Positions 5,098-28,415 of a stretch of DNA of 28,415 nucleotides are shown in pieces. Every line of letters begins with the position of its first letter. Position 1 is the first letter of the stretch. The notes below the pieces were generated by a model. The model was not told the DNA's origin and did no database searches. It saw nothing but the letters and a program-made list of their open reading frames with translations. This DNA comes from a virus: positions 1 to 28,415 of the IMG/VR virus record IMGVR_UViG_3300025652_000385; one strand, written 5' to 3'. Made by a program: the position numbers and the translations under genes.

Positions 5098-5326
5098 GGA
5101 ATTGATTAAGGTAGCCAAAGAGGCTATTGTAGATTCTGATGATGACTTAACAGCAGATAAGCTAAAGAATGCGGCGGCAACTAAAAAGCTAGCTATATTC
5201 GATGCTTTTGAAATTCTTAACAGAATACAAGAGGAAGAAGACATGCTAGATGATAAACCTAAAGACGACACAAAAAAGAAAAGTGAGTTTAAGGGTTTTG
5301 CAGAAGGTAGAGCAAAGTTCGAGTAA
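5042..5326 (+). CDS. Putative terminase small subunit
   Basis: A 94-aa, charged, mainly helical protein directly upstream of the large terminase. Residues 8-65 (AGQKAVEELIKVAKEAI, LKNAAATKKLAIFDAFEIL, RIQEEE) form two helices joined by an acidic loop; the tail (KKKSEFKGFAEGRAKF) is basic. From memory, the phrase LKNAAATKKLAIFDAFEIL is conserved in proteins just before TerL in marine crAss-like phages. Small terminase subunits recognise DNA for packaging and sit exactly here, so the assignment is by position and helical make-up, not by a diagnostic motif. The ATG at 5042 lies inside the GroES-like gene; the next Met is after the conserved region, so this start is kept. The terminase ATG follows one base after its stop. 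Confidence 0.5.
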   Translation: MNVKETKKSIIQAGQKAVEELIKVAKEAIVDSDDDLTADKLKNAAATKKLAIFDAFEILNRIQEEEDMLDDKPKDDTKKKSEFKGFAEGRAKFE

Positions 5327-5327
5327 T

Positions 5328-7544
5328 ATGTACGAGCAAACATTATATAAAGTACTGGATAACTATATAAAACCCAGTACTTTAAAAAAGAAAAATAGAG
5401 TCAAGTCCTGGAAGTATGGGTATGACGAAGACCATGATATGGTCGTTATAAGTAAAACTGGTAAGATAGGTGATATATACGAAATACAAAATCTTAAAAT
5501 AGCATTACCAGCTGAGTTTAAAACTCACAACTTTAAAGAAAAGAAATGGGGTAAGTTAGATTACCCTAAAGAGTTAAGCAGAATTAAAACAATATTTGAC
5601 TGGAAGGAATACCCAGAAGAATTTAAAGAAGACTGGTACGATTATATAGAAACGGAATTTGAAAGAAGAGATACTGGATTTTTCTTTTCCAACAAAGGCA
5701 AGTCTACTTATATTACAGGGTCACATTATATGTACTTACAATGGTCAAAGATTGACGTTGGAAATGCAGACTTCAGAGAATCAAACAGATTGTTTTATAT
5801 CTTTTGGGAAGCATGCAAGGCTGATGCAAGGTGTTTTGGAATGTGTTACTTAAAGAACAGGCGTAGTGGATTTTCATTTATGTCGTCAGGAGAAACAGTT
5901 AACCTTGCTACAATGTCTACAGATTCTAGATATGGCGTGTTATCAAAGTCAGGGCCTGATGCGAAGAAAATGTTTACTGATAAGATAGTACCTATATCTA
6001 TTAACTATCCGTTCTTCTTTAAGCCCATACAGGATGGTATGGATAGACCAAAGACGGAATTAGCATATAGAGTTCCTGCTTCAAAGCTTACTAGAAGAAA
6101 GCTTGATATAAACGAAACTGTTGCAGATATAAAAGGGTTGGACTCTACGATTGATTGGAAAAACACAGGAGATAACTCTTATGATGGGGAAAAACTAAAA
6201 CTGTTAGTGCACGATGAATCTGGAAAATGGGAAAAGCCTAATAACATATTAAACAATTGGAGGGTAACAAAGACTTGTCTAAGGCTAGGTAGTAGGATTA
6301 TTGGCAAGTGTATGATGGGATCAACAAGCAATGCCTTAGATAAAGGCGGTAGCAATTTTAAAAAATTATATTATGCCTCAGACGTTGAAAAAAGAAACAG
6401 TAACGGACAAACTGCTTCTGGATTATATTCTTTGTTCATACCTATGGAATGGAATTACGAAGGATACATTGATTCTTACGGAATGCCTGTCTTCGATACA
6501 CCAGAGAAACCAGTTAGCGACCCGTATGGAATGCCTATTAAACAAGGGGTAATAAGTTACTGGGAGAATGAAGTTAATGGCTTAAAGCAAGACCAAGACG
6601 GTCTAAACGAATTTTACAGACAGTTTCCTAGAACAGAGCAACATGCATTCAGAGATGAGGCAAAAGAATCATTATTTAACCTAACAAAGATTTACCAACA
6701 AATAGACCATAACGAGTCTATGGCTTCTAGTACTTTAGTTACAAGGGGTAACTTTCAATGGGAGAATGGTGTTGTAGATACAAAGGTGATATTTATGCCA
6801 AATAAAAATGGTAGATTTTATGTGAGTTGGATACCCTCAGTTAGCTTACAGAATAGGGTAGTAACAAAGCATAGTATTAAACACCCTGGTAATGAGCACT
6901 TAGGTGCATTTGGTTGTGATAGTTATGATATATCTGGAACAGTAGATAATAGAGGTTCTAATGGTTCTTTGCATGGTTTGACTAAGTTTAGTATGGAGGA
7001 TGCTCCTTCAAATCACTTCTTTTTAGAATATATAGCTAGACCACAAACCGCTGAGATATTTTTTGAGGACGTACTTATGGCTTGCGTGTTTTATGGCATG
7101 CCAATACTAGCAGAGAATAACAAACCTAGACTGTTATATCACTTTAAAAGAAGGGGTTACAGAGGGTACTCTATGAATAGACCAGATAAGTTATCAAATA
7201 AGTTATCTATAACAGAAAGAGAGATTGGAGGAATACCTAACTCTAGTGAAGATATAAAACAAGCGCATGCCGCTGCAATTGAAACTTATATAGAGGAATT
7301 AGTTGGAATACTAGGTGATGATGAGATGGGAGACATGTACTTTCAGAGGACGTTAGAGGATTGGGCTAGGTTTAATATTAATAACAGAACTAAGCACGAT
7401 GCCTCTATAAGCTCAGGACTAGCTATAATGGCTTGCAATAGAAACAGATACGCACCAATAAATAAAGTGGTACGAAAAAATATAAATCTAGGATTTAAGA
7501 AATACGATAATACTGGAGAATTTTCAAAAATAATAAATAAATGA
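5328..7544 (+). CDS. terL: Terminase large subunit (packaging ATPase-nuclease)
   Basis: A 738-aa motor protein that pumps DNA into the prohead and cuts it. The ATG at 5328 is preferred over upstream ones in frame, since it lies one base after the previous stop. The ATPase region has LKNRRSGFSFMSS (residues 175-187) where the P-loop sits, with no GKT/S; this deviant form fits crAss-like terminases. Walker B is LKLLVHDE (D296, E297) and the coupling motif is MMGSTSNALDKGG (around 331-340). The nuclease part contains FGCDSYD (D531, candidate first metal ligand) and FFLEYIARPQTAEIFFEDVL. The ATG of the portal gene overlaps the stop as ATGA. Assignment is firm from motif order, size and neighbours. 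Confidence 0.93.
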   Translation: MYEQTLYKVLDNYIKPSTLKKKNRVKSWKYGYDEDHDMVVISKTGKIGDIYEIQNLKIALPAEFKTHNFKEKKWGKLDYPKELSRIKTIFDWKEYPEEFKEDWYDYIETEFERRDTGFFFSNKGKSTYITGSHYMYLQWSKIDVGNADFRESNRLFYIFWEACKADARCFGMCYLKNRRSGFSFMSSGETVNLATMSTDSRYGVLSKSGPDAKKMFTDKIVPISINYPFFFKPIQDGMDRPKTELAYRVPASKLTRRKLDINETVADIKGLDSTIDWKNTGDNSYDGEKLKLLVHDESGKWEKPNNILNNWRVTKTCLRLGSRIIGKCMMGSTSNALDKGGSNFKKLYYASDVEKRNSNGQTASGLYSLFIPMEWNYEGYIDSYGMPVFDTPEKPVSDPYGMPIKQGVISYWENEVNGLKQDQDGLNEFYRQFPRTEQHAFRDEAKESLFNLTKIYQQIDHNESMASSTLVTRGNFQWENGVVDTKVIFMPNKNGRFYVSWIPSVSLQNRVVTKHSIKHPGNEHLGAFGCDSYDISGTVDNRGSNGSLHGLTKFSMEDAPSNHFFLEYIARPQTAEIFFEDVLMACVFYGMPILAENNKPRLLYHFKRRGYRGYSMNRPDKLSNKLSITEREIGGIPNSSEDIKQAHAAAIETYIEELVGILGDDEMGDMYFQRTLEDWARFNINNRTKHDASISSGLAIMACNRNRYAPINKVVRKNINLGFKKYDNTGEFSKIINK

Positions 7545-9949
7545 ACGTAGGCGCAAACCCAAATAGTGTATTTCCTAGCCAAGTAGTTAGTGATGCTGAA
7601 AAATCAAGTTTTGAGTATGGTGTGCAAGTTGGCAGGGCCGTAGAATCAGAATGGTTTATGCAGGGCGGTATGGGAAATAGATTTTCACAAAACTATAACC
7701 ATTTCCATAACTTAAGGCTATACGCAAGAGGGGAGCAGCCAGTACAGAAATACAAAGATGAACTAGCAATCAATGGTGATTTATCTTACCTAAACCTAGA
7801 CTGGCAGCCAGTTCCTGTTATATCTAAGTTTGTTGATATTGTAGTCAACGGTATTACTGAAAAAGATTTTAAAATAAAGGCATACGCACAAGACCCTGCG
7901 GCTATAAAGAAAAGAACAGACTACGCTGAGGCTATAATGCAAGACATGGTAGGCCGAGAGGAGATAGAGGAGTTAAACAGACAACTTGGGGTTAATACTT
8001 TTAACACTACAGACCCAGAAAATCTTCCTAGAAATCAAGAAGAATTATCCTTGCATATGCAATTAGACTACAAGCAGTCTATTGAGGTGGCTGAGGAGGA
8101 GGTTATAAATCATGTTCTAGATAAAAATAAATTTAACGAGGTAAAGAAAAGATTTAATTATGATTTAGCCGTACTAGGAATTGGTGCTGCTAAGACTACA
8201 TGGAATAAAGCAGAGGGTGTGGTTCTCGAATACTGTGACCCTGCTAGAATGATTTACTCCTATACTGATGATCCTAACTTTGAGGATGTGTATTATGTTG
8301 GTGAGGTTAAGTCCCTTACAATACCTGAGTTAAAAAAGCAATTTCCTAATATATCAAATGAAGAGTTAGAGAAGATAGAAAAAATGCCAGGTAACAGGGA
8401 ATACGTTACTGGGTGGAATGATTACGATAGAAATAGCGTTCAAGTTTTATTTTTTGAGTATAAGACTTATAATCATCAAGTATTTAAAATTAAGCAAGGT
8501 CTTAATGGTTTAGAAAAAGCAATACAAAAAACAGACGAATTTAATCCTCCTGAAAACGATACATTTAAAAAAGTGTCAAGAAGTATAGAGGTGTTGTACA
8601 GTGGTGCTAAAGTATTGGGTAATAATCAAATGCTTAAGTGGGAGCTGTCAGAGAATATGACTAGGCCATTTTCGGATACTACTAAGGTAGAAATGAACTA
8701 CGTTATGTGCGCTCCTAGGATGTATCAAGGTAGAATAGAGTCTATTGTAAGTAAGATAACTGGATTTGCTGATATGATTCAGCTTACACATTTAAAACTG
8801 CAACAGGTAATGTCTAGAATGGTTCCTGATGGAGTATTCTTAGATGTTGATGGATTAGCAGAAGTAGATTTAGGTAACGGAACAAACTATAATCCAGCCG
8901 AGGCACTTAATATGTACTTCCAGACTGGTAGTGTTCTAGGTAGGTCACTTACGCAAGATGGTGATATGAATAGAGCAAAGGTTCCTATTCAAGAGCTACA
9001 AACATCAAGCGGAGGTGCTAAGATACAGTCTCTAATACAGACCTATCAGTATTATTTGCAAATGATAAGAGATGTTACTGGACTTAACGAGGCTAGAGAC
9101 GGTTCTGCCCCAGCTAAAGATGCTTTGGTAGGATTGCAGAAGATGGCTGCTAATCAATCAAATGTAGCAACAAGACACATACTGCAGGCTAGTTGTTATA
9201 TATCACTTAGAATATGTGAAAACATATCATTAAGGGTGGCTGATTCACTAGAGTTTGCATTAACATCTAATTCACTTCAATCAAGCATTTCTAAATTTAA
9301 TGCAGCAACCTTAGCCGAAATAAGTAAATTAAACTTACACGACTTTGGTATCTTCTTGGAGTTAGAGCCAGATGATGAAGAGAAGTCTCAATTAGAGCAA
9401 AATATACAGGTTGCATTGCAAACAGGAGGTATTGACTTAGAGGACGCTATAGATATAAGACAGGTAAGAAACCTTCAATTAGCAAATGAAATGCTGAAGG
9501 ACAAGAGAAGGAAAAAACAAGCTGCCGCACAACAAGCACAACAGGCTAACATACAAGCACAAGCACAAGCTAATGCAGAGTTAGCTGAAAAAGCAGCAAT
9601 GTCTGAGGTGCAGAAACAGCAAGCGTTAACCGCTGAAAAGGTAAGTGTAGAGCAAGCTAAATCTCAATTTGAGATACAGAGAATGCGAGCTGAGGCACAA
9701 ATAAAAAGAGAGTTAATGACTGCTGAATTTAACTTCAATATGCAACTAGCTCAGGTTAGGGTAAAAGCTGAAGGGTTAAAAGAAAAAGAAATAGAAGATA
9801 GGAAAGATAAAAGGGTTAAGATAACAGGAACTCAACAATCCGAAATGATTGACCAAAGAAAAAACAATTTATTACCTAAAAACTTTGAATCTACAGGTAA
9901 TGATGTTTTAAGTGGAGGGTTTGGTTTAGGAGATTTTGACCCAAGTTAA
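7541..9949 (+). CDS. Portal protein
   Basis: An 802-aa protein of the crAss-like portal family, expected to form the dodecameric ring at one capsid vertex through which DNA enters and leaves. It begins with YNHFHNLRLYARGEQPVQKY and LNLDWQPVPVISKFVDIVVN (residues about 54-105), which I recognise as the conserved N-terminal part of these portals. A central region contains VTGLNEARDGSAPAKDALVG (around 510-530). The last ~120 residues are an Ala/Gln/Glu-rich coiled coil (about 650-770) that probably forms the barrel or reaches into the head. The start overlaps the terminase stop by 4 nt (ATGA), so the two are translationally coupled. Size, order and motifs agree. Confidence 0.92.
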   Translation: MNVGANPNSVFPSQVVSDAEKSSFEYGVQVGRAVESEWFMQGGMGNRFSQNYNHFHNLRLYARGEQPVQKYKDELAINGDLSYLNLDWQPVPVISKFVDIVVNGITEKDFKIKAYAQDPAAIKKRTDYAEAIMQDMVGREEIEELNRQLGVNTFNTTDPENLPRNQEELSLHMQLDYKQSIEVAEEEVINHVLDKNKFNEVKKRFNYDLAVLGIGAAKTTWNKAEGVVLEYCDPARMIYSYTDDPNFEDVYYVGEVKSLTIPELKKQFPNISNEELEKIEKMPGNREYVTGWNDYDRNSVQVLFFEYKTYNHQVFKIKQGLNGLEKAIQKTDEFNPPENDTFKKVSRSIEVLYSGAKVLGNNQMLKWELSENMTRPFSDTTKVEMNYVMCAPRMYQGRIESIVSKITGFADMIQLTHLKLQQVMSRMVPDGVFLDVDGLAEVDLGNGTNYNPAEALNMYFQTGSVLGRSLTQDGDMNRAKVPIQELQTSSGGAKIQSLIQTYQYYLQMIRDVTGLNEARDGSAPAKDALVGLQKMAANQSNVATRHILQASCYISLRICENISLRVADSLEFALTSNSLQSSISKFNAATLAEISKLNLHDFGIFLELEPDDEEKSQLEQNIQVALQTGGIDLEDAIDIRQVRNLQLANEMLKDKRRKKQAAAQQAQQANIQAQAQANAELAEKAAMSEVQKQQALTAEKVSVEQAKSQFEIQRMRAEAQIKRELMTAEFNFNMQLAQVRVKAEGLKEKEIEDRKDKRVKITGTQQSEMIDQRKNNLLPKNFESTGNDVLSGGFGLGDFDPS

Positions 9950-19582: not shown

Positions 19583-21589
19583 ATGGCTACAATAAGAGAG
19601 ATAACGTATTTTAATTCATTTGTAGTTAAGAAAGTAGTTAAAGATAAAATCCCTTCTGAACCCCCTTATACACCCGTTTTAGGTGGAGCGTCAACCTGGC
19701 CCTCTATGCCTTGGAATCCAGTAGGATACCCTACGTTTCCTTTGCTTGTATATAGCGCCTATAGATATTATTCTTGGTATGTAGAGGAGAATAGAATACG
19801 TGGAGGGTTTAATAACGTTCAGTCAGAGCTCGGAGTTAGAGCGTACATAAAGGAAACCACAGATAGTGAATTGATACTCGGTAATGGTCTTATATATTCA
19901 GGGCTTTACAACTCAACGACAGGCTTTAACGATACTAATGTATTCTCTGTTGCTGAAACTATTACAAAGCAAGTAGATCCTAGATACGGTGCTATACAAA
20001 AATTGTACACATCAGATACAAATTTAATAATATTTCAAACAGACAAAATAAGCAACGTCTTAGTAGACAAGGACGCTATATATACGGCTGATGGTAATCC
20101 AGCACTAACGGCTTCTACATTAGTACTGGGGCAAATAAAACAATATGCTGGAGAGTACGGAATAAGTGTCAATCCACAATCATTTTCTTTCAAAGGTAAT
20201 AGGCTATACTTTACTGACAAGGATAGAGGTGCGGTAATGAGGTTATCATTAGATGGTCTTACTGAAATAAGTACATATGGAATGCGTGATTATTTTAGAG
20301 ATAAGCTTGCTTCTATATCAAACACCCCTAGATTTAGTAATCTCACAAACGTTCTGCTTGAATATTACAACAAGTCAAATCAGATTGTATTTCCTACGGA
20401 CACTTTTATTGCAAGAGATACAACTACAGGGTTAGCTAGCGACTTGGAGCTTGGGGCTCAGTCAACAAAAACAATAGAAGGTAATAGTGGTGTGTATATA
20501 GTTAACAAACAGATTACGGGAGGATTGACTGGTTCTTTAGCAATAACGGACAATAGCACTACTCTAGGAATAGGGACTACTACACATACAGTTACTTCAT
20601 CAAGGTCAACAGCTTCTCAGGTTAGCGCAACGGTAACGGTGACTGTTAACCCTGCTTTTGAGGTATCTAGTATTGTTGTCGCTACTCCAGGTGATTTATA
20701 TTCGATGGGAGATGTGTTAACAATACCATCTATTGGTGATGTCACGTTTTCTATAGCTACAGATAACATAATACCAGACGCAACCGCACGTAGGATTACA
20801 TTTAACCGAACATTAGTTTATAATAATATTTTTTTACCTGCCCTTAGCAATGAATTTGTTTTTTATATTTTATTGCAGGACAAGATAGTAGGTGGGTATG
20901 ATAATTATTATGATAACTATGTTTTATCAATGCAAAAAAGTGTTGAAAAAACATATGATACATTGTCATTTTCAGAGAAAGTTAATGGGTGGACTAGCTT
21001 CTGGGATTACAAGCCATCGTTTATAGGTACATTAAGTAATGTGTATTATTCAGTAGAAGGAATTAATGTATGGAAACATTACAATGAATCAGTAATTAAT
21101 AATAGAGGGTACTTCTATGGAACTTATTATCCTACTTCGGTTGAGTTTGCTTTCAATCCAAGTGTGTCTAACTCTAAAAACTTCAATACTATAAACTATG
21201 AAGGAACAAATGGGTGGCAAGTAAACCATTTTTTATCGGATAGTACAGGAGCTACTAAATCAAGTTACGGAGTAAATAGTTATAAGGATGATTCTGCGTT
21301 AGTATACAGCTACGATGAGGGAGTTTATGTTGATGGAGGTGTTACTTATAGAGTTGGGTTTGACAGAAAAGAAAATAAATACGTAGCTAATTTAATTAAC
21401 AATGGCGTTGTCACTTCTACTACGAATACATTAGTGCCTGCTGGTCAGCCAGGACAAGTACTCCCAGGAACCAGTATGAGTGGGATAAAAGGATATTTTG
21501 CTACAGTTAAATTAAGTACGGATACAACTACAGAAATAGGAGGGTTAAAAAGTCTTTTTGCTGTGTCTTCAAATTTCGTTAAGTCTTAA
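19583..21589 (+). CDS. Second muzzle/tail protein (beta-propeller-like)
   Basis: A 668-aa protein. The segments YSWYVEENRIRGGFNNVQSE (about 63-82), SGLYNSTTGFNDTNVFSVAE (about 107-126), ITKQVDPRYGAIQKLYTSDT and VSNVLVDKDAIYT-like text are conserved in the later part of crAss-like stabilisation/muzzle proteins as I remember them. Repeated short beta units (ENRIRGGF, IQKLYTSDTNLIIFQ, RLYFTDKDRGAVMRLSLDG) suggest a propeller. Residues about 313-393 are a Thr/Val/Gly-rich insert with PGDLYSMGDVLTIP, like those in 13699 and 15961. The C-terminus has an aromatic-rich region (WTSFWDYKPSFIGTL) seen in phage tail tip proteins. It probably binds the preceding protein to complete the muzzle. Confidence 0.78.
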   Translation: MATIREITYFNSFVVKKVVKDKIPSEPPYTPVLGGASTWPSMPWNPVGYPTFPLLVYSAYRYYSWYVEENRIRGGFNNVQSELGVRAYIKETTDSELILGNGLIYSGLYNSTTGFNDTNVFSVAETITKQVDPRYGAIQKLYTSDTNLIIFQTDKISNVLVDKDAIYTADGNPALTASTLVLGQIKQYAGEYGISVNPQSFSFKGNRLYFTDKDRGAVMRLSLDGLTEISTYGMRDYFRDKLASISNTPRFSNLTNVLLEYYNKSNQIVFPTDTFIARDTTTGLASDLELGAQSTKTIEGNSGVYIVNKQITGGLTGSLAITDNSTTLGIGTTTHTVTSSRSTASQVSATVTVTVNPAFEVSSIVVATPGDLYSMGDVLTIPSIGDVTFSIATDNIIPDATARRITFNRTLVYNNIFLPALSNEFVFYILLQDKIVGGYDNYYDNYVLSMQKSVEKTYDTLSFSEKVNGWTSFWDYKPSFIGTLSNVYYSVEGINVWKHYNESVINNRGYFYGTYYPTSVEFAFNPSVSNSKNFNTINYEGTNGWQVNHFLSDSTGATKSSYGVNSYKDDSALVYSYDEGVYVDGGVTYRVGFDRKENKYVANLINNGVVTSTTNTLVPAGQPGQVLPGTSMSGIKGYFATVKLSTDTTTEIGGLKSLFAVSSNFVKS

Positions 21590-22423: not shown

Positions 22424-24517
22424 ATGGGTACTTATAGAAATCCAAGTTCAGTAAGAAAATATCAAGATTCGCCTTCAACAGTAAATAATTCTGCTGGATA
22501 TGATTACTTAGCAGAACAAGCAAGTCAAATAAAGCAAGATAGAATTAGGGCAAAAGAAAACTGGGATATAAAAAGAAATATTCAAAATATTAGCGCAGGC
22601 ATATCAGCTGACATAGGTGTCATGGCTGGGAGTGAAGGATTTGACTATAATGGTATTGCTACAGGTACTAAGGCTATGATGGATCAATTCACTAAGAATA
22701 AGATACGAATGGAGACCTCATCTGAAGAGTACGAGGGGTATGAAGAAGAGTTAAAGTACAATGATGCCGTTATAAGCTTCATTAAAAATGCACCTGATGT
22801 TTTTGGAGCTTTAGCATACTCAAGAAGTGAGTGGGATAAGTCGATAGTAAAAGGGTTTGGTAATGGCCCTGGGCAAATAAGTGCTAGGCATACAGACCCG
22901 TATTTTAACTTATCTCAAAATTATGCTAGACCAAATAGCGAGTTGAAAGGGACTACTTATCTAGAGCAAAATTATGACAAGGAAGCGGGGCAAATAAAAT
23001 GGAGTTATGTAGTAGAGGGAGAGGAAGTACGTAAGCTTAATGAATCCAAATACAAGGAAACTGGTGACGAAAAATATAATACTGGTAATAAGCATTATAT
23101 CTCTTTAACAGAATTAAACTCTTTTCAAGAGAATTTTAATGGCGATGCCAATAATCATGGGTTATTTGTGACATCGGCAGATATGAGTGCAGTCAATAAA
23201 CCTGACCTTGTCACAGCTGGTGTAATTAAAGACGGAATGCTAACTGAAAAGTATATGACTACCGTAAGCTCAGAAAGGGGAAATACCGTAATAAACACCA
23301 CAACCCCAAATATAGATATGGTTCAATCAGCTTTAAACGCATCGACACAGTCGTTCGCACAGACGCTTTTAAATGGTACTGCCGAGACACTTGATGCTAC
23401 AATAAGGGCTTATGGTGAGCAAGGAAAAGGAGAGGATGAGGATAAGGTTTACTACAACCCATATGCGAGAGACCCTGAAACAAATAAATATCTAAAAGAC
23501 GAAAACGGATTTGCTTACCAGACTGGTAAAATAGAAATGCCTACTTTATTTGATAGAAGTGATTTACAGGGAAGAAGCTCAACAAATGGATATATCGAAG
23601 AAGATTATAAGAAGGTTATTAATTATTTTGAAGATATAAATATGGCAGAAAACGGAGGGTTTAGCAAAGGTCTTATTGAGGTAGACAAAGACGCAACAAA
23701 AGCTCTTCAGCAAAAAATTAAAGATAGCAAAGGAAAGCCGCTTACTCCAGCACAACTAGAAAAACAGCGAAGTCGTGATTTTATAAACCGCAGTATTGAT
23801 GATGTTCAAAAACAAATTGCTGATGGCAAGAACCCTTTAGAAGCTGTTAAGAGGCTTGTTAATTTAGGTGACGACAGAGTAACCGTTAATGCAATACCTA
23901 ATACGGGTTTTATTGAGCTTAATAAAACTAACGAAAATGGTACTGTAATTAAGACTCTTATAGATCCGAATACAGAAGTAGGTAGAGGTCTCATTCTAAG
24001 GGCTTACGGCCATGAGCTTCCAGGAGAGCTACAAGATAGAATAATTGCAGAACCAGATAATACGGAGCTAAATAAGTATAAAAAGAAATTTAAAGAACGT
24101 GAGGAGTATAAAAAAACTCAGGAGGAACAAGAGGCCATAGACGAAGATATATCTCAAGCAATGGCTCTATTAAAATCCGTAAATCCAGGCAAAGATACTA
24201 GGAAACGATTGTTAGACGCAAAGGATGAATATGCTGAAATAAATATTGGTATTAGAGCACCTGAAGATGATGATGATGGTACGATGTTAATCATTGAAGA
24301 TGTTACTGGGGGTACTCATACTTTGGATGCTACAGACGCTAAATTTAAACAAAAATTTGAAAAGATTTTACGAATAACAAAAGAATCAGTTGAAGCGGAA
24401 AAGCGTGATAATGCCTCTAAGGAATACAAGCTTGGACTTAAAGTGGATGAACTTTTAGGTAAACCTAAAGATAAAAATTTTGTAGAAGTAAAAAACGCAT
24501 CACGTTTTAATAAATAA
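22424..24517 (+). CDS. Large hypothetical virion-associated protein, probable internal protein
   Basis: A 697-aa protein with no domain that I recognise. The N-terminal ~60 residues are polar (MGTYRNPSSVRKYQDSPSTV, then AEQASQIKQDRIRAKENWDI), leading to a helical segment with an Ala/Gly-rich part (ISAGISADIGVMAGSEGF). The middle is mixed and acidic, with Asn-rich stretches. The C-terminal ~150 residues are strongly charged helices (KKFKEREEYKKTQEEQEAID) with a DDDD run in APEDDDDGTML. No signal peptide or membrane span is obvious. The size and location between a cargo-like protein and the giant polyvalent protein suggest an internal virion (ejected) component. An AT-rich leader (34 nt) precedes it, and 14 nt follow before the next start. 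Confidence 0.65.
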   Translation: MGTYRNPSSVRKYQDSPSTVNNSAGYDYLAEQASQIKQDRIRAKENWDIKRNIQNISAGISADIGVMAGSEGFDYNGIATGTKAMMDQFTKNKIRMETSSEEYEGYEEELKYNDAVISFIKNAPDVFGALAYSRSEWDKSIVKGFGNGPGQISARHTDPYFNLSQNYARPNSELKGTTYLEQNYDKEAGQIKWSYVVEGEEVRKLNESKYKETGDEKYNTGNKHYISLTELNSFQENFNGDANNHGLFVTSADMSAVNKPDLVTAGVIKDGMLTEKYMTTVSSERGNTVINTTTPNIDMVQSALNASTQSFAQTLLNGTAETLDATIRAYGEQGKGEDEDKVYYNPYARDPETNKYLKDENGFAYQTGKIEMPTLFDRSDLQGRSSTNGYIEEDYKKVINYFEDINMAENGGFSKGLIEVDKDATKALQQKIKDSKGKPLTPAQLEKQRSRDFINRSIDDVQKQIADGKNPLEAVKRLVNLGDDRVTVNAIPNTGFIELNKTNENGTVIKTLIDPNTEVGRGLILRAYGHELPGELQDRIIAEPDNTELNKYKKKFKEREEYKKTQEEQEAIDEDISQAMALLKSVNPGKDTRKRLLDAKDEYAEINIGIRAPEDDDDGTMLIIEDVTGGTHTLDATDAKFKQKFEKILRITKESVEAEKRDNASKEYKLGLKVDELLGKPKDKNFVEVKNASRFNK

Positions 24518-24531
24518 TAATATTACAAAAC

Positions 24532-27500
24532 ATGAACGAAGAGGCATTACAATATTCATTTGAATTATTCTCTAAAGATGGATACGAAGGTAGCATTGAG
24601 GATTATAAAGAGTTGATAGGTAGCAATAAAGAGGCTTTAGATTATTCTTACAGTCTATTCTCTGGTGATGGGTTTGATGGAGATAAATCTAAATTCTCCG
24701 AGTTAGTTGGTGTTACATCAGCAAAGACGATGGCTGTTGTGGGGGAAGATGCGGCCACACCAGCAGATACGGTTTTAGCATCGGAAAATGGTTCATTGGA
24801 ATCGCTAGAGATAAATCAGCCTGAACAGGATGAGACATCAAAGTTTCTTAGCGGATTAAATTACCTTCCACCTATATCAGATATAAAGGAGGACACTAAA
24901 GCTGTAGAAGAGAAAGTGGGGGCTGATAAAAAACCCTCCATAAAAGACCCTTTTAGTTTTCAGCCTTTAACTATGGCTTCAGAAGAAAGAGGCCCTAATA
25001 TTAACTCTCAAATTAATATTGATAAAGATAAGGAAAACCAGCTTAATTACTTAGCAAAAGAAAACCCTATAGTTCTCCCTTCTATTGAAGGTATGTCGTT
25101 AACTACAGAGGATGTAGAAAATAAGATACAGACTAAAAAAGACAGCATAGAGTATAATAACTCTTTCTTACGAACAAGAGGTTTAGACGAGCCTACTAGA
25201 AATTCATATAAAGATGATAACCGAAGTCTTAATTATGATATTATTAATCTACAGCTTGTTAAGGCTCAAAAAGATATTAATAATGAATCGTTTGACTACG
25301 GTGATTTTAATGAAATAAAAAGAAATTACAGTAACCTGTACGGGGGAGCTCTTCCGATGAATGTTGAGTTACTGGACAATGCAGAGCAGGCTTATTTAAA
25401 CATTGAGCAGTATATAGCTAAAGATCTAAATTCAGAAATTAAAAATCTGGATATGGATGCCTTAACTAAGATAGATAATAACGGATCTGAAAGGGCCGAT
25501 ATAGACAAAATAACAGAAGCAGCCGAGAAACTTACACTTAAAAAAACTGGAGTTCCTGCATACCAGAGTCCTGTTGTTTATAGCATGGCTTATGAGACAA
25601 TTAGAAATTTAGCAGAACAGAATGGTAAATTAAAGGCTGCTAATAAAATAGTATCGAATAACCCAGAGGCCGAAGAATTAAAAAATAAAATAGGGAGGGA
25701 TAGGTACGATGCTTTTATAAGTGGTAGTGAGTATTATAAAGTAGAAAGTAACGCATACAGCGAAAGGGAAAGCAAATTAAAAAATGAGTTTTATGAAAAG
25801 CAGTTAGAATTACAAAGTGAGTTTGAGTTATTTTCAAAAGAAAAAACTAGCGAACTGCAAGCTAACGTATCGAATGGCTTAATTTCCGCTGTAGACGCTA
25901 ATGAAGAATTAGCCAAGTATAATGCTGCTCTATTTAAAAATGTAAGAGCAAGAGAATCAAGTCTTGTAAGTATCACTAATAGAAAATCAGACTCTCTTCT
26001 CAATGACTTTAATAAAAAAATAGCTTCAGAGCAAGAGGAATTTAATAAAAAATACAAGATTCCTAATGAAGACCAAGAACTATTATCTAACATTTACAGT
26101 GAGGCATGGACAAAAGCGTCAGAGAATGAAAGGTATAGATTAAAATCCAATGAAGAAAGGTACAGTTCCATTTCGAAGGACAAGGTAAATCCCGCCTTGA
26201 AACTAATTTTATCTCCTTTAGCGGCAGTCGTACTAGAAGGCATACCTAACATCGGTAAGGAAATGAATAATGCTATAGGCAGGTCTATATCTTCTTTTGG
26301 CGTTATGTCTAACAATCCTCTGTTTATTGAGATTGGTGATGACATGAAGTCTAACTTTTCAGTTGCAGAAGATAATCTACAGAATTTTTCTGACTTGACA
26401 GATTTTAGTAAAGTAACTAAATCTATAGGTAGAGGGTTGGGATCAGCCTTACCTTCTATAGCTGTAGGGTCTACTGTTGCTGCCCTTAGTGGTGGTATCG
26501 GGACTATTCCAGCTATGGGTTTAGTTGCGTCTGCGGGGTGGATTAGCGAGACATCAGATATGGCTGGGTCTATATACCGAGACACTTATGCAGAAACTGG
26601 CAGTTTACTTAAGGCAGAACAAGCTAGTAGTGAATTGATTAGTAAACAACTTGGAAACTGGTATTTATACACACTAGACGGTATACCATTTGTAGGTAAG
26701 TCATTAAAAAGAATCCCTACTGCGGCAGGAAGAATAGCCGTTGCTGGGGGTGTCGAGTCTGTTACAGAGACAGGACAAGAAACTGTTCAGACGGCTCAGG
26801 AAGAGGCTATATCAAAAAGCGTTAGAAGTGGAGGCCCTATAACAGCCTCTGGGTGGGAAGAAAGAATAAATTCAGGAATGATTAAGAAAACTTTCTTGGA
26901 GGTCGCACCTAGTTCTATGCTTATGGGTATTGGCGGTAGAGCTGCTACTGAATATCAGGATGTTAGAAACAGAAATAAGTTTGCTGAAGGAATTATAAAC
27001 AAGTACAAGTTAAGTGCTGTAGACGAAAATGGTTCTTTTATCGCACAGAGAATAGCTGAGTCTGTGTTTCAGCATGGCGAAAACTTTACAACATCATGGA
27101 TATCAACCCTGTTGGAAACAGGTAAAATAACAGAGAGAGAATTTAGTAATCTATCAAGAAAAGTTACTGAGTATAACTTACTAAAACAAGATTATTCTTT
27201 TTTCAATAAGTTAAGCCCGAAAGATAAAAATATATACATATTACTATCACACAATGTATCAGCTTTAGAGCAGGAAGCTAAAGACTCTAAGGATGGGAAG
27301 GTGTTAAATACTGAGTCTACAGACAAAGCTAGAGCTGAATTAAAAGAATTTGTAAAAGACCCGATGCTTTGGAGTGGTGACTATGTTAATATATCTTTAG
27401 ATGACAAGTCATTTTTAATGACCTCTGCCCAGTTTTCTGATTTAATGTTAGCATCTCCAGAAATGTTTTCTGAAGGTAATAATGTATCAGTGAATATCTT

Positions 27501-28415
27501 TAATAACCCAGAACTATCTAAGGAGTTTAATAATTTACTTGACAATAAACAAGAAATAAATGAAACAGCAACCGAAACAACTGAGCAACCCACAGCAGAT
27601 GTGCAAGAGGATAAGCGAGATAGTGAAGAAGTACAGCAAGAAGTAAATAAAGGGTATAGAGCTGGAAACTTAATTGATAAGGCAGAGAAATTTGTAGATG
27701 GGTCTAGAAGTACGGGACATTTCGGAACTGGATTTTATTTCTTCGGAAAGAAAGATGCTGCCGTAAAACACGATGAAGGTGCGAAAAGAGGTGTTTCTGA
27801 GATAGACTTAGACGGATATAATTTAGCTGAAGGGACTAAGGAATTACATTCTGAACTTAAGAATATAAATAACAATGGCAATACGTACGAACAAAACATA
27901 ACGGGAGATGATATATCATCATTAATGAGTACTCTTGGGATGTTACCAAAAAACCCTATTAAAACACCTAGGAATCAATCAGAAGAACAGGCTTTATTAG
28001 ATGATGGAATGACTCAGAAAGAAATAGATGATTTATTTACTAAGGCAATAGAATGGGATTCCGATTTACAGCAAAAAAATGAAGATATAGCTAAAAGGGT
28101 TAATGAAGAGTTGAAAAACCCTAATATAAACTCTGAAAATAGAGAGTCTGGCTCTACGTTAGTAATGAAAGAGTTAGGGTTCGATGGTGTGGACTCCAGA
28201 AGTAATGCTGACTTAGATAATGGGGTATATGGTTCTGTTATTTATGACATAAAGGAATCTAAACCTAAACAAGAAACACAAAAAGACGGTGAAGAAGTAC
28301 AGCAAGAAGAAATAGATGGGGTTAAGGATGTCATCTTACAAGAAACAGATGAAGGTAATTTCGCAATAAAAGATGAGAATGAAAACCAAATCGGGTATTT
28401 AGATATTAATGATAT
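24532..28415 (+). CDS. Giant modular polyvalent protein with ADP-ribosyltransferase-like module (3' end cut off)
   Basis: The frame is open from ATG 24532 to the right edge: 1294 residues with no stop. In order: two 30-residue tandem repeats (residues 4-60, phases aligned as EALQYSFELFSKDGY / EALDYSYSLFSGDGF); a disordered Ser/Glu/Pro-rich linker (about 62-160); long coiled-coil-rich regions (about 180-550); a hydrophobic Gly/Ala stretch at 640-671 (ALPSIAVGSTVAALSGGIG); then a helical region. Next is an Ala/Glu/Thr linker and an ART-like module (GYRAG at 1041-1045, STGHFGTGFYFF at 1060-1071, GFDGVD at 1216-1221, VYGSVIYD ending at D1239). A second linker and the start of a further domain follow at the window end. 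Such multi-domain proteins are known as polyvalent proteins and are delivered with DNA to disarm host defences; delivery here is inferred from position after virion genes. Confidence 0.75.
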   Translation, partial: MNEEALQYSFELFSKDGYEGSIEDYKELIGSNKEALDYSYSLFSGDGFDGDKSKFSELVGVTSAKTMAVVGEDAATPADTVLASENGSLESLEINQPEQDETSKFLSGLNYLPPISDIKEDTKAVEEKVGADKKPSIKDPFSFQPLTMASEERGPNINSQINIDKDKENQLNYLAKENPIVLPSIEGMSLTTEDVENKIQTKKDSIEYNNSFLRTRGLDEPTRNSYKDDNRSLNYDIINLQLVKAQKDINNESFDYGDFNEIKRNYSNLYGGALPMNVELLDNAEQAYLNIEQYIAKDLNSEIKNLDMDALTKIDNNGSERADIDKITEAAEKLTLKKTGVPAYQSPVVYSMAYETIRNLAEQNGKLKAANKIVSNNPEAEELKNKIGRDRYDAFISGSEYYKVESNAYSERESKLKNEFYEKQLELQSEFELFSKEKTSELQANVSNGLISAVDANEELAKYNAALFKNVRARESSLVSITNRKSDSLLNDFNKKIASEQEEFNKKYKIPNEDQELLSNIYSEAWTKASENERYRLKSNEERYSSISKDKVNPALKLILSPLAAVVLEGIPNIGKEMNNAIGRSISSFGVMSNNPLFIEIGDDMKSNFSVAEDNLQNFSDLTDFSKVTKSIGRGLGSALPSIAVGSTVAALSGGIGTIPAMGLVASAGWISETSDMAGSIYRDTYAETGSLLKAEQASSELISKQLGNWYLYTLDGIPFVGKSLKRIPTAAGRIAVAGGVESVTETGQETVQTAQEEAISKSVRSGGPITASGWEERINSGMIKKTFLEVAPSSMLMGIGGRAATEYQDVRNRNKFAEGIINKYKLSAVDENGSFIAQRIAESVFQHGENFTTSWISTLLETGKITEREFSNLSRKVTEYNLLKQDYSFFNKLSPKDKNIYILLSHNVSALEQEAKDSKDGKVLNTESTDKARAELKEFVKDPMLWSGDYVNISLDDKSFLMTSAQFSDLMLASPEMFSEGNNVSVNIFNNPELSKEFNNLLDNKQEINETATETTEQPTADVQEDKRDSEEVQQEVNKGYRAGNLIDKAEKFVDGSRSTGHFGTGFYFFGKKDAAVKHDEGAKRGVSEIDLDGYNLAEGTKELHSELKNINNNGNTYEQNITGDDISSLMSTLGMLPKNPIKTPRNQSEEQALLDDGMTQKEIDDLFTKAIEWDSDLQQKNEDIAKRVNEELKNPNINSENRESGSTLVMKELGFDGVDSRSNADLDNGVYGSVIYDIKESKPKQETQKDGEEVQQEEIDGVKDVILQETDEGNFAIKDENENQIGYLDIND
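24541..24714 (+). repeat. Two 30-residue tandem repeats at the protein N-terminus
   Basis: Codons for residues 4-33 and 34-63 align in phase: EALQYSFELF / EALDYSYSLF, SKDGYEGS / SGDGFDGD, and Y25-F55 plus EL at 27-28 and 57-58, ending IG / VG. The nucleotide match is moderate, so the repeat is old or selected at protein level. From memory, similar N-terminal units occur on other large proteins of flavobacterial phages, possibly as a packaging or docking tag. Confidence 0.75.
27623..27643 (+). repeat. Direct repeat copy 1, left of ART-like module
   Basis: A perfect 21-nt copy of the element at 28289-28309, in the same reading phase, encoding EEVQQE (residues 1032-1037) within an acidic linker that precedes the ART-like module. 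Confidence 0.9.
27652..28263 (+). other. ADP-ribosyltransferase-like module (part of the 24532 gene)
   Basis: Module of about 200 residues (about 1041-1244). GYRAG could supply the NAD-binding Arg, STGHFGTGFYFF the Ser-Thr-Gly strand and aromatic motif, and the end GFDGVDSRSNADLDNGVYGS (then VIYDIKE) matches the closing 'GYDGV...Y.VxxDP.QIK' pattern of many phage ART domains. The third, usually acidic (Glu) catalytic residue is not obvious; D1239 or E1242 are candidates. Enzyme activity is therefore a prediction, not shown. Confidence 0.6.
28289..28309 (+). repeat. Direct repeat copy 2, right of ART-like module
   Basis: Identical to 27623-27643 over 21 nt and encoding EEVQQE (residues 1254-1259). 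Distance between copies is 666 nt (222 codons), so the ART-like module lies between them in frame. Confidence 0.9.

Follow-up and report, generated by a model that had tools for sequence, protein, structure and literature searches.

The window analysed here is the whole of a linear virus record of 28,415 bases (IMGVR_UViG_3300025652_000385), and the last open reading frame (ORF) in it is a giant gene of polyvalent type (Table 1). Within this gene a module resembling ADP-ribosyltransferases (ART) lies between two copies of a short linker, the core of which is an exact 21-nucleotide (nt) direct repeat, GTGAAGAAGTACAGCAAGAAG. Both copies encode EEVQQE, are 666 nt apart and share one frame of the ORF, exactly as an earlier note on this DNA had claimed. 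This is the longest exact direct repeat in the 28.4-kb window, no other exceeding 17 nt. When codons of the giant gene were shuffled, the longest repeat was 10–18 nt in all 2000 trials and never 21; when synonymous codons were shuffled with the protein fixed, 17 of 20000 trials left the two 21-nt copies identical. Just two hexapeptides, EEVQQE among them, are repeated in the 1294 amino acids (aa), and elsewhere in the protein it is rare (p = 0.001 over positions) for six residues to be shared at the module's spacing.

Table 1. Features of the window, with positions in the 28,415-base record
Feature	Position	Strand	Remarks
Terminase large subunit	5250..7544	+	phrog_6681, E 4e-162
Portal protein	7541..9949	+	phrog_6547, E 2e-139
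Crass-type muzzle protein	19583..21589	+	PF25729 crAss_MUZ_C, E 2e-10, above cut-off
Giant polyvalent-type ORF, last in window	24532..>28413	+	1294 aa read; open at the contig's right end
Region upstream of linker	25777..27642	+	~29% aa identical to G003 codons 351-876
Extended linker, ETTEQPTADVQEDKRDSEEVQQE	27574..27645	+	DNA identity island: G002 96% over 72 nt, G003 92% over 79 nt
Linker core repeat, copy 1, GTGAAGAAGTACAGCAAGAAG	27623..27643	+	exact 21-nt repeat
ART-like module (cassette), 207 aa core	27646..28266	+	relatives in 19 viral loci; weak DUF3990 / ART-PolyVal matches in relatives; weak fold matches
Linker core repeat, copy 2, GTGAAGAAGTACAGCAAGAAG	28289..28309	+	exact 21-nt repeat; 23/23 nt match to G003 linker
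Start of next module, cut by contig end	28310..28413	+	sequence past second core differs in G002, G003

Polyvalent-type ORFs matching 19 nt of the repeat core were found in three contigs (L032, L038 and L040), which belong to the phages called here G001, G002 and G003; the giant gene is identical in G001 and G003, two separate metagenome records. The peptide ETTEQPTAD[VM]QE[DG]KRDSEEVQQE is common to the window and all three phages, and different sequence comes after it. In blastn of the whole window against all of G003 and against G002 minus its last 144 bases, the only matches were those of the linker, plus one 23-nt match of the second copy to the linker. Identity counted in 15-nt blocks rises from background only about 60 bases ahead of the core, is 13–15 of 15 through the linker and falls to background again past the core. 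Between the window and G002/G003 the linker has 20 of 23 codons identical, with two of the three changes nonsynonymous, while the upstream module adjoining it is just 29% identical in aa between the window and G003 (codons 416-1037 of the window ORF against 351-876, blastp E 2e-34, with the alignment stopping at the linker). Near-identical linker DNA beside such a diverged module is not predicted by constraint on the protein alone; transfer of linker DNA between lineages would predict the pattern, identity island included. In each of the three genes a second copy of the core follows downstream and in frame, at 666 nt in the window (around the ART-like module), at 390 nt in G002 and at 198 nt in G003, where it carries E to K changes. 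The cassettes enclosed by the two core copies are different in the window, G002 and G003.

G002 and G003 were also compared with each other over the giant gene (L058:9944-17497 against L060:13852-7445). Elsewhere these two phages share many DNA blocks, 76–100% identical (mostly 80–97%). Inside the giant gene DNA similarity is found only at or next to three linkers (stretches of 160, 89 and 65 nt, identical at 96%, 99% and 86% respectively), and it returns, at 97%, six bases past the stop codon. Two stretches of the giant proteins can still be aligned, at 33–44% on the protein level, so some domains were exchanged for distant homologues and others for sequence in which no similarity can be detected. 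A second, longer linker of these phages (MGKPEGSQEPLEQSEG..., L058:10149-10308 and L060:13488-13647), 96% identical between them with dissimilar DNA on either side, has no match in the window. In G003 the gene that follows the giant gene downstream (L060:3161-5302, minus strand) has its own repeats, 30 nt exact and 186 nt apart, as well as LGISLENEQELSADLKIA units.

Another set of relatives came from a two-sequence profile of the ART-like module, which found 19 viral loci; no such module was found in annotated phages, plasmids or GTDB genomes. Two of these loci, L015 and L016, share blocks 96.8–99.5% identical and differ by five clean in-frame module changes, three of them exactly at an 18–24-nt linker encoding APRQQ, which occurs in four to five copies in each of L014–L016. 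Between APRQQ copies L016 has gained a 141-aa module relative to L015 and has lost a 246-aa module, and the module after the ART is replaced from APRQQ to APRQQ. Two further modules are extra in L016, with borders that share about 9 nt. At one of the variable sites L014 has a third state. A module with the sequence LVYHVT.. stands before the ART in L014 and after it in L015, at 39% identity only. The joint in L010, L012 and L013 is R[MFL]QA and, judging from motif positions and shared blocks, modules between such joints in L010 and L012 are missing from L013. Matches to the APRQQ linker DNA in further contigs (L023 and L028) appear to be chance frames and were rejected.

The earlier note had suggested that domains of this protein are exchanged as cassettes, or lost by clean in-frame deletion, through short linkers, and had proposed to look in relatives for the module being present, absent or replaced between the repeats. 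Such differences were found in two independent sets: the window's own linker encloses other cassettes in G001–G003, and modules are cleanly lost, inserted and replaced in frame at the APRQQ linkers of L014–L016. Cassette exchange or loss at linkers is thereby supported, its mechanism being what we infer.

We then asked how general bracketing is by comparing 45 residues on either side of the module in 16 giant proteins. In 11 of them the module is bracketed by a shared peptide of at least five residues (position p-values 0.0003 to 0.009). Six types of bracketing linker occur: EEVQQE, PQTRQQ, FKKQK, IRMQA, VAPRQQ and GAAEQR; the bracketing peptide of L017 reflects a tandem copy of the ART-like module. 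L014 has four shared residues only, yet RQQ linkers flank its module on both sides. Same-codon counts between linker copies were set against the expectation from codon usage, and are given without p-values because the pairs are not independent. They exceed expectation in L014–L016 (29/43, 46/67 and 48/67 against 15.3, 24.9 and 24.5) and in the window, G002 and G003 together (17/18 against 9.1); in this group the excess fits recent copying at the level of DNA.

With linkers kept and the intervening domains gained, lost or replaced, the gene behaves as a row of exchangeable cassettes. We consider it likely that the giant polyvalent-type ORF consists of domain cassettes joined in frame by recombination at short recurring linkers; the cassette interpretation is supported by the comparisons above, from which the recombination mechanism is deduced. 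The giant virion-cargo protein would then be a set of domain cassettes joined by short recurring linkers, and the linker DNA (a core of 18–24 nt, extending up to about 70–160 nt) would be the homology where recombination joins cassettes in frame. Pairing of two linker copies in one gene could delete or swap the module between them, and pairing with the linker of a co-infecting phage could import a different module. The DNA repeat itself would be the recombination substrate, and the exchange might be the work of a host system or of a single-strand annealing protein of the phage, such as the ERF protein of G002 and G003. The giant protein would be packaged and injected, and turnover of cassettes may adapt the injected enzyme set to hosts. 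An ERF annealing protein is encoded by G002 (7e-27), by G003 (9e-14) and by the record of L010 (2e-24); a Rad52-type protein gave one match, in the record of L018, and RecT was not found in the seven records searched.

Several observations weigh against recombination at linkers. The records of L015, L016 and L007, some of them fragments, yielded no ERF, RecT or Rad52-type protein, so that one annealing protein cannot be demonstrated as a cause common to all. Of the five changes between L015 and L016, two use just about 9 nt. The recombination events themselves are reconstructed from comparison, none having been directly observed, and we found no close relative of the window in which just the ART cassette is missing. 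Four giant proteins (L006, L009, L011 and L022) bear the ART with no clear bracketing repeat in the 45-residue flanks. Also, no codon excess is seen in the linkers of L004, L010, L012, L013, L017, L007 and L008, with L018 intermediate; the group without excess fits constraint on the peptide.

A linker kept as peptide and not as codons in some lineages may also have a role in the protein, e.g. as a cleavage site. As a tentative alternative, linkers could be conserved as working peptides, probably cut by a zincin-type metallopeptidase of the same chain, or by another protease, to release domains; junctions would then fall at linkers only because breaks elsewhere destroy a domain. The lack of codon excess in L004, L010, L012, L017 and L007 speaks for this, as does one junction at which R-x-Q is kept with different DNA (VADIPQ is preceded by SIRMQ in L014 and by APRQQ in L016). 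R[QMFLY]Q is enriched in several giant proteins (10 against 1.4 expected in L014, 5 against 0.9 in L004). All lineages with R-x-Q linkers carry HExxH, but independent lineages are few and this is only a hint of processing, and the complete giant proteins of G002 and G003 have no HExxH motif. Metallopeptidase processing of polyvalent proteins was predicted on other grounds in the account of Iyer et al. 2017 (PMC5512222). The window's group, in contrast, keeps synonymous positions between copies and between phages, and processing is in any case compatible with recombination at linkers. A combination of the two, with linker DNA serving as sites of domain exchange between phages and the linker peptide as cleavage sites of the giant protein, seems to us unlikely; were it true, the linker would be a lineage-specific exchange code that also matches a protease in the same protein. 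R-x-Q peptides (RQQ, RMQ, RFQ and RLQ) recur before domains in L004, L010, L012–L016 and L018, and the HExxH motif is found in the same proteins. As a structured RNA element, the linker showed no fold beyond that of shuffles.

Both copies of the repeat lie within E/Q-rich stretches, and a coincidence of acidic, low-complexity linker composition could be suspected from this and from the four ART relatives without a clear bracketing repeat; the earlier note had taken relatives that keep the module with no linker repeat and no presence/absence variation as an argument for chance. Those four do keep the module, but linker-bounded presence, absence or replacement is common elsewhere. Given that codon shuffles never attain 21 nt, that the longer linker recurs at 92–96% identity in other phages and that a linker of five residues or more brackets the module in 11 of the 16 giant proteins, the chance of mere coincidence is negligible. 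Metagenome assembly could also have joined contigs of different phages at shared repeats: every swapping comparison rests on metagenome contigs, and assemblers can err at a shared repeat of 70–90 nt. Such chimeras are improbable here. The identical gene of G001 and G003 comes from two metagenome records, the repeats of L015/L016 are merely 9–24 nt long, and both L015/L016 and G002/G003 rejoin the same backbone after each swap, for which paired errors would be needed; a comparable 26-nt in-frame repeat in cultured Elemovirus isolates indicates that such repeats are real. Insertion of the ART module as a mobile element, with the repeats as target-site duplications, would agree with the direct repeats of different sequence that flank the module in the window and in L004. 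We hold it to be very improbable, as the window's linker core encloses other cassettes in G002 and G003, APRQQ is found four to five times in each of L014–L016, and Pfam finds no mobility domain in the module.

The cultured case is Flavobacterium phage elemoA 7-9A (L042:4570-15654; the same in L041, L043 and L044), in which the gene of a giant structural protein has a 26-nt exact in-frame repeat, 396 nt apart and encoding QEDAVQKQ. The 132-aa stretch between the repeats (about 124 aa between the QEDAVQKQ copies) matches neither a Pfam family nor, by profile, the ART modules. The giant genes of the four Elemovirus isolates are 99% identical and colinear, with no presence or absence of a module among the four records, so exchange is not seen among isolates; partial tblastn matches were rejected as module loss on the same grounds. 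These isolates could serve as a bench system for testing loss between repeats.

The closest precedent for cassette exchange at linkers is domain movement (DOMO) in type I and IIG restriction specificity genes (Furuta et al. 2011, PMC3077401), where a domain with repeated DNA on each side can change place, disappear or be acquired inside a single gene, probably via recombination at the repeats. Here, too, repeated DNA flanks the moving domain on both sides, and gain, loss or replacement at repeats distinguishes the alleles of one locus (L014/L015/L016, G002/G003); by analogy, the window's system would work like DOMO in a new setting, a gene of phage virion-cargo type. DOMO concerns target-recognition domains at two positions of one fold, whereas the phage gene is a string of unrelated domains with very short linkers. 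The polyvalent proteins that phages and conjugative elements encode are presented in the main text of Iyer et al. 2017 (PMC5512222) as giant effectors of many domains, ART, metallopeptidase and LPD domains among them, with genes that stand among those of the virion; extensive mosaicism is noted there in Helicobacter jhp1044 proteins, and cassette recombination is raised for kinase loci. The window likewise encodes a very large multidomain protein among virion genes, but the word 'linker' is absent from that main text, and we found no description of the joints and their repeats there. In polymorphic toxin systems, according to Zhang et al. 2012 (PMC3482391), recombination with standalone cassettes yields new effector domains. 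The change of effector domains by recombination with cassettes is the likeness; there the variable part is the C-terminal toxin, whereas in the phage giant protein internal domains would be exchanged. Phage polyvalent proteins are known as mosaic, and we did not find a route of in-frame domain exchange described in the literature. In these genes the exchange joints are plain from the sequence and a list of cassettes can be drawn up by cutting at linkers, and inspecting the sequence between repeated linkers offers a practical route to new candidate injected effector domains.

As to the module itself, the ART label is weakly supported. ART-like, as in the earlier note, is the fitting name: there are weak matches in relatives and in fold searches, and the window module has neither a Pfam-A ART match (DUF3990, ART-PolyVal PF18760) at E up to 1 nor a histidine in strand 1. 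Among 17 aligned modules, weak Pfam matches were to DUF3990 in eight (best 9e-4) and to ART-PolyVal in five (best 2e-3). The predicted structure has a mean pLDDT (predicted local distance difference test) of 82.5. Foldseek of this model gave no match in PDB at E < 0.001; VIA-align gave weak matches to a cyanophage pre-ejectosome chain (Z 5.7 over 98 residues) and to the anti-CRISPR protein of 6kyf (AcrIF11, an ART; Z 4.2 over 80 residues). The best BFVD match is named PolyVal ADP-Ribosyltransferase (E 0.065). The active site of polyvalent ARTs (ART-PolyVal / Tox-ART-HYD2) is described by Iyer et al. 2017 (PMC5512222) as H in strand 1, Y in strand 2 and D in strand 5. In the module strand 1 (KGYRA) contains R but lacks H, the Y of the second strand (Y31) is invariant, and D201 comes after the last strand. 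The giant ORF of L017 has a tandem copy of the ART-like module at codons ~2130-2520, each followed by YDVKPGAAEQRVS. Stand-alone short proteins with an ART-like module are encoded at L019:8456-9340, L020:9896-10723 and L021:5657-6736.

The window also encodes a crass-like virion module of terminase, portal and muzzle, and the crass-type muzzle (PF25729) together with the related terminase (phrog_6681) and portal (phrog_6547) places the virus with crass-like phages. Relatives of the muzzle are present in the cultured Cellulophaga phages phi38:1 and phi40:1 and in Flavobacterium phages. The syntenic counterpart of the giant ORF in phi40:1 is gp101, annotated in its record as structural from tandem mass spectrometry (MS/MS) proteomics; there is no sequence match between the two, so that the virion location of the giant protein is drawn by analogy, and these phages probably package it. 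No Pfam family was found in the window's giant ORF, and no protein-level relatives of its upstream part or of ORF 22424-24517 were found in viral contigs. An LPD23 match (E 9e-14) is present in the relative L002. At the other end of the window, GGCTCCTGCACCAGTT is present twice at positions 1049-1082, 18 nt apart.
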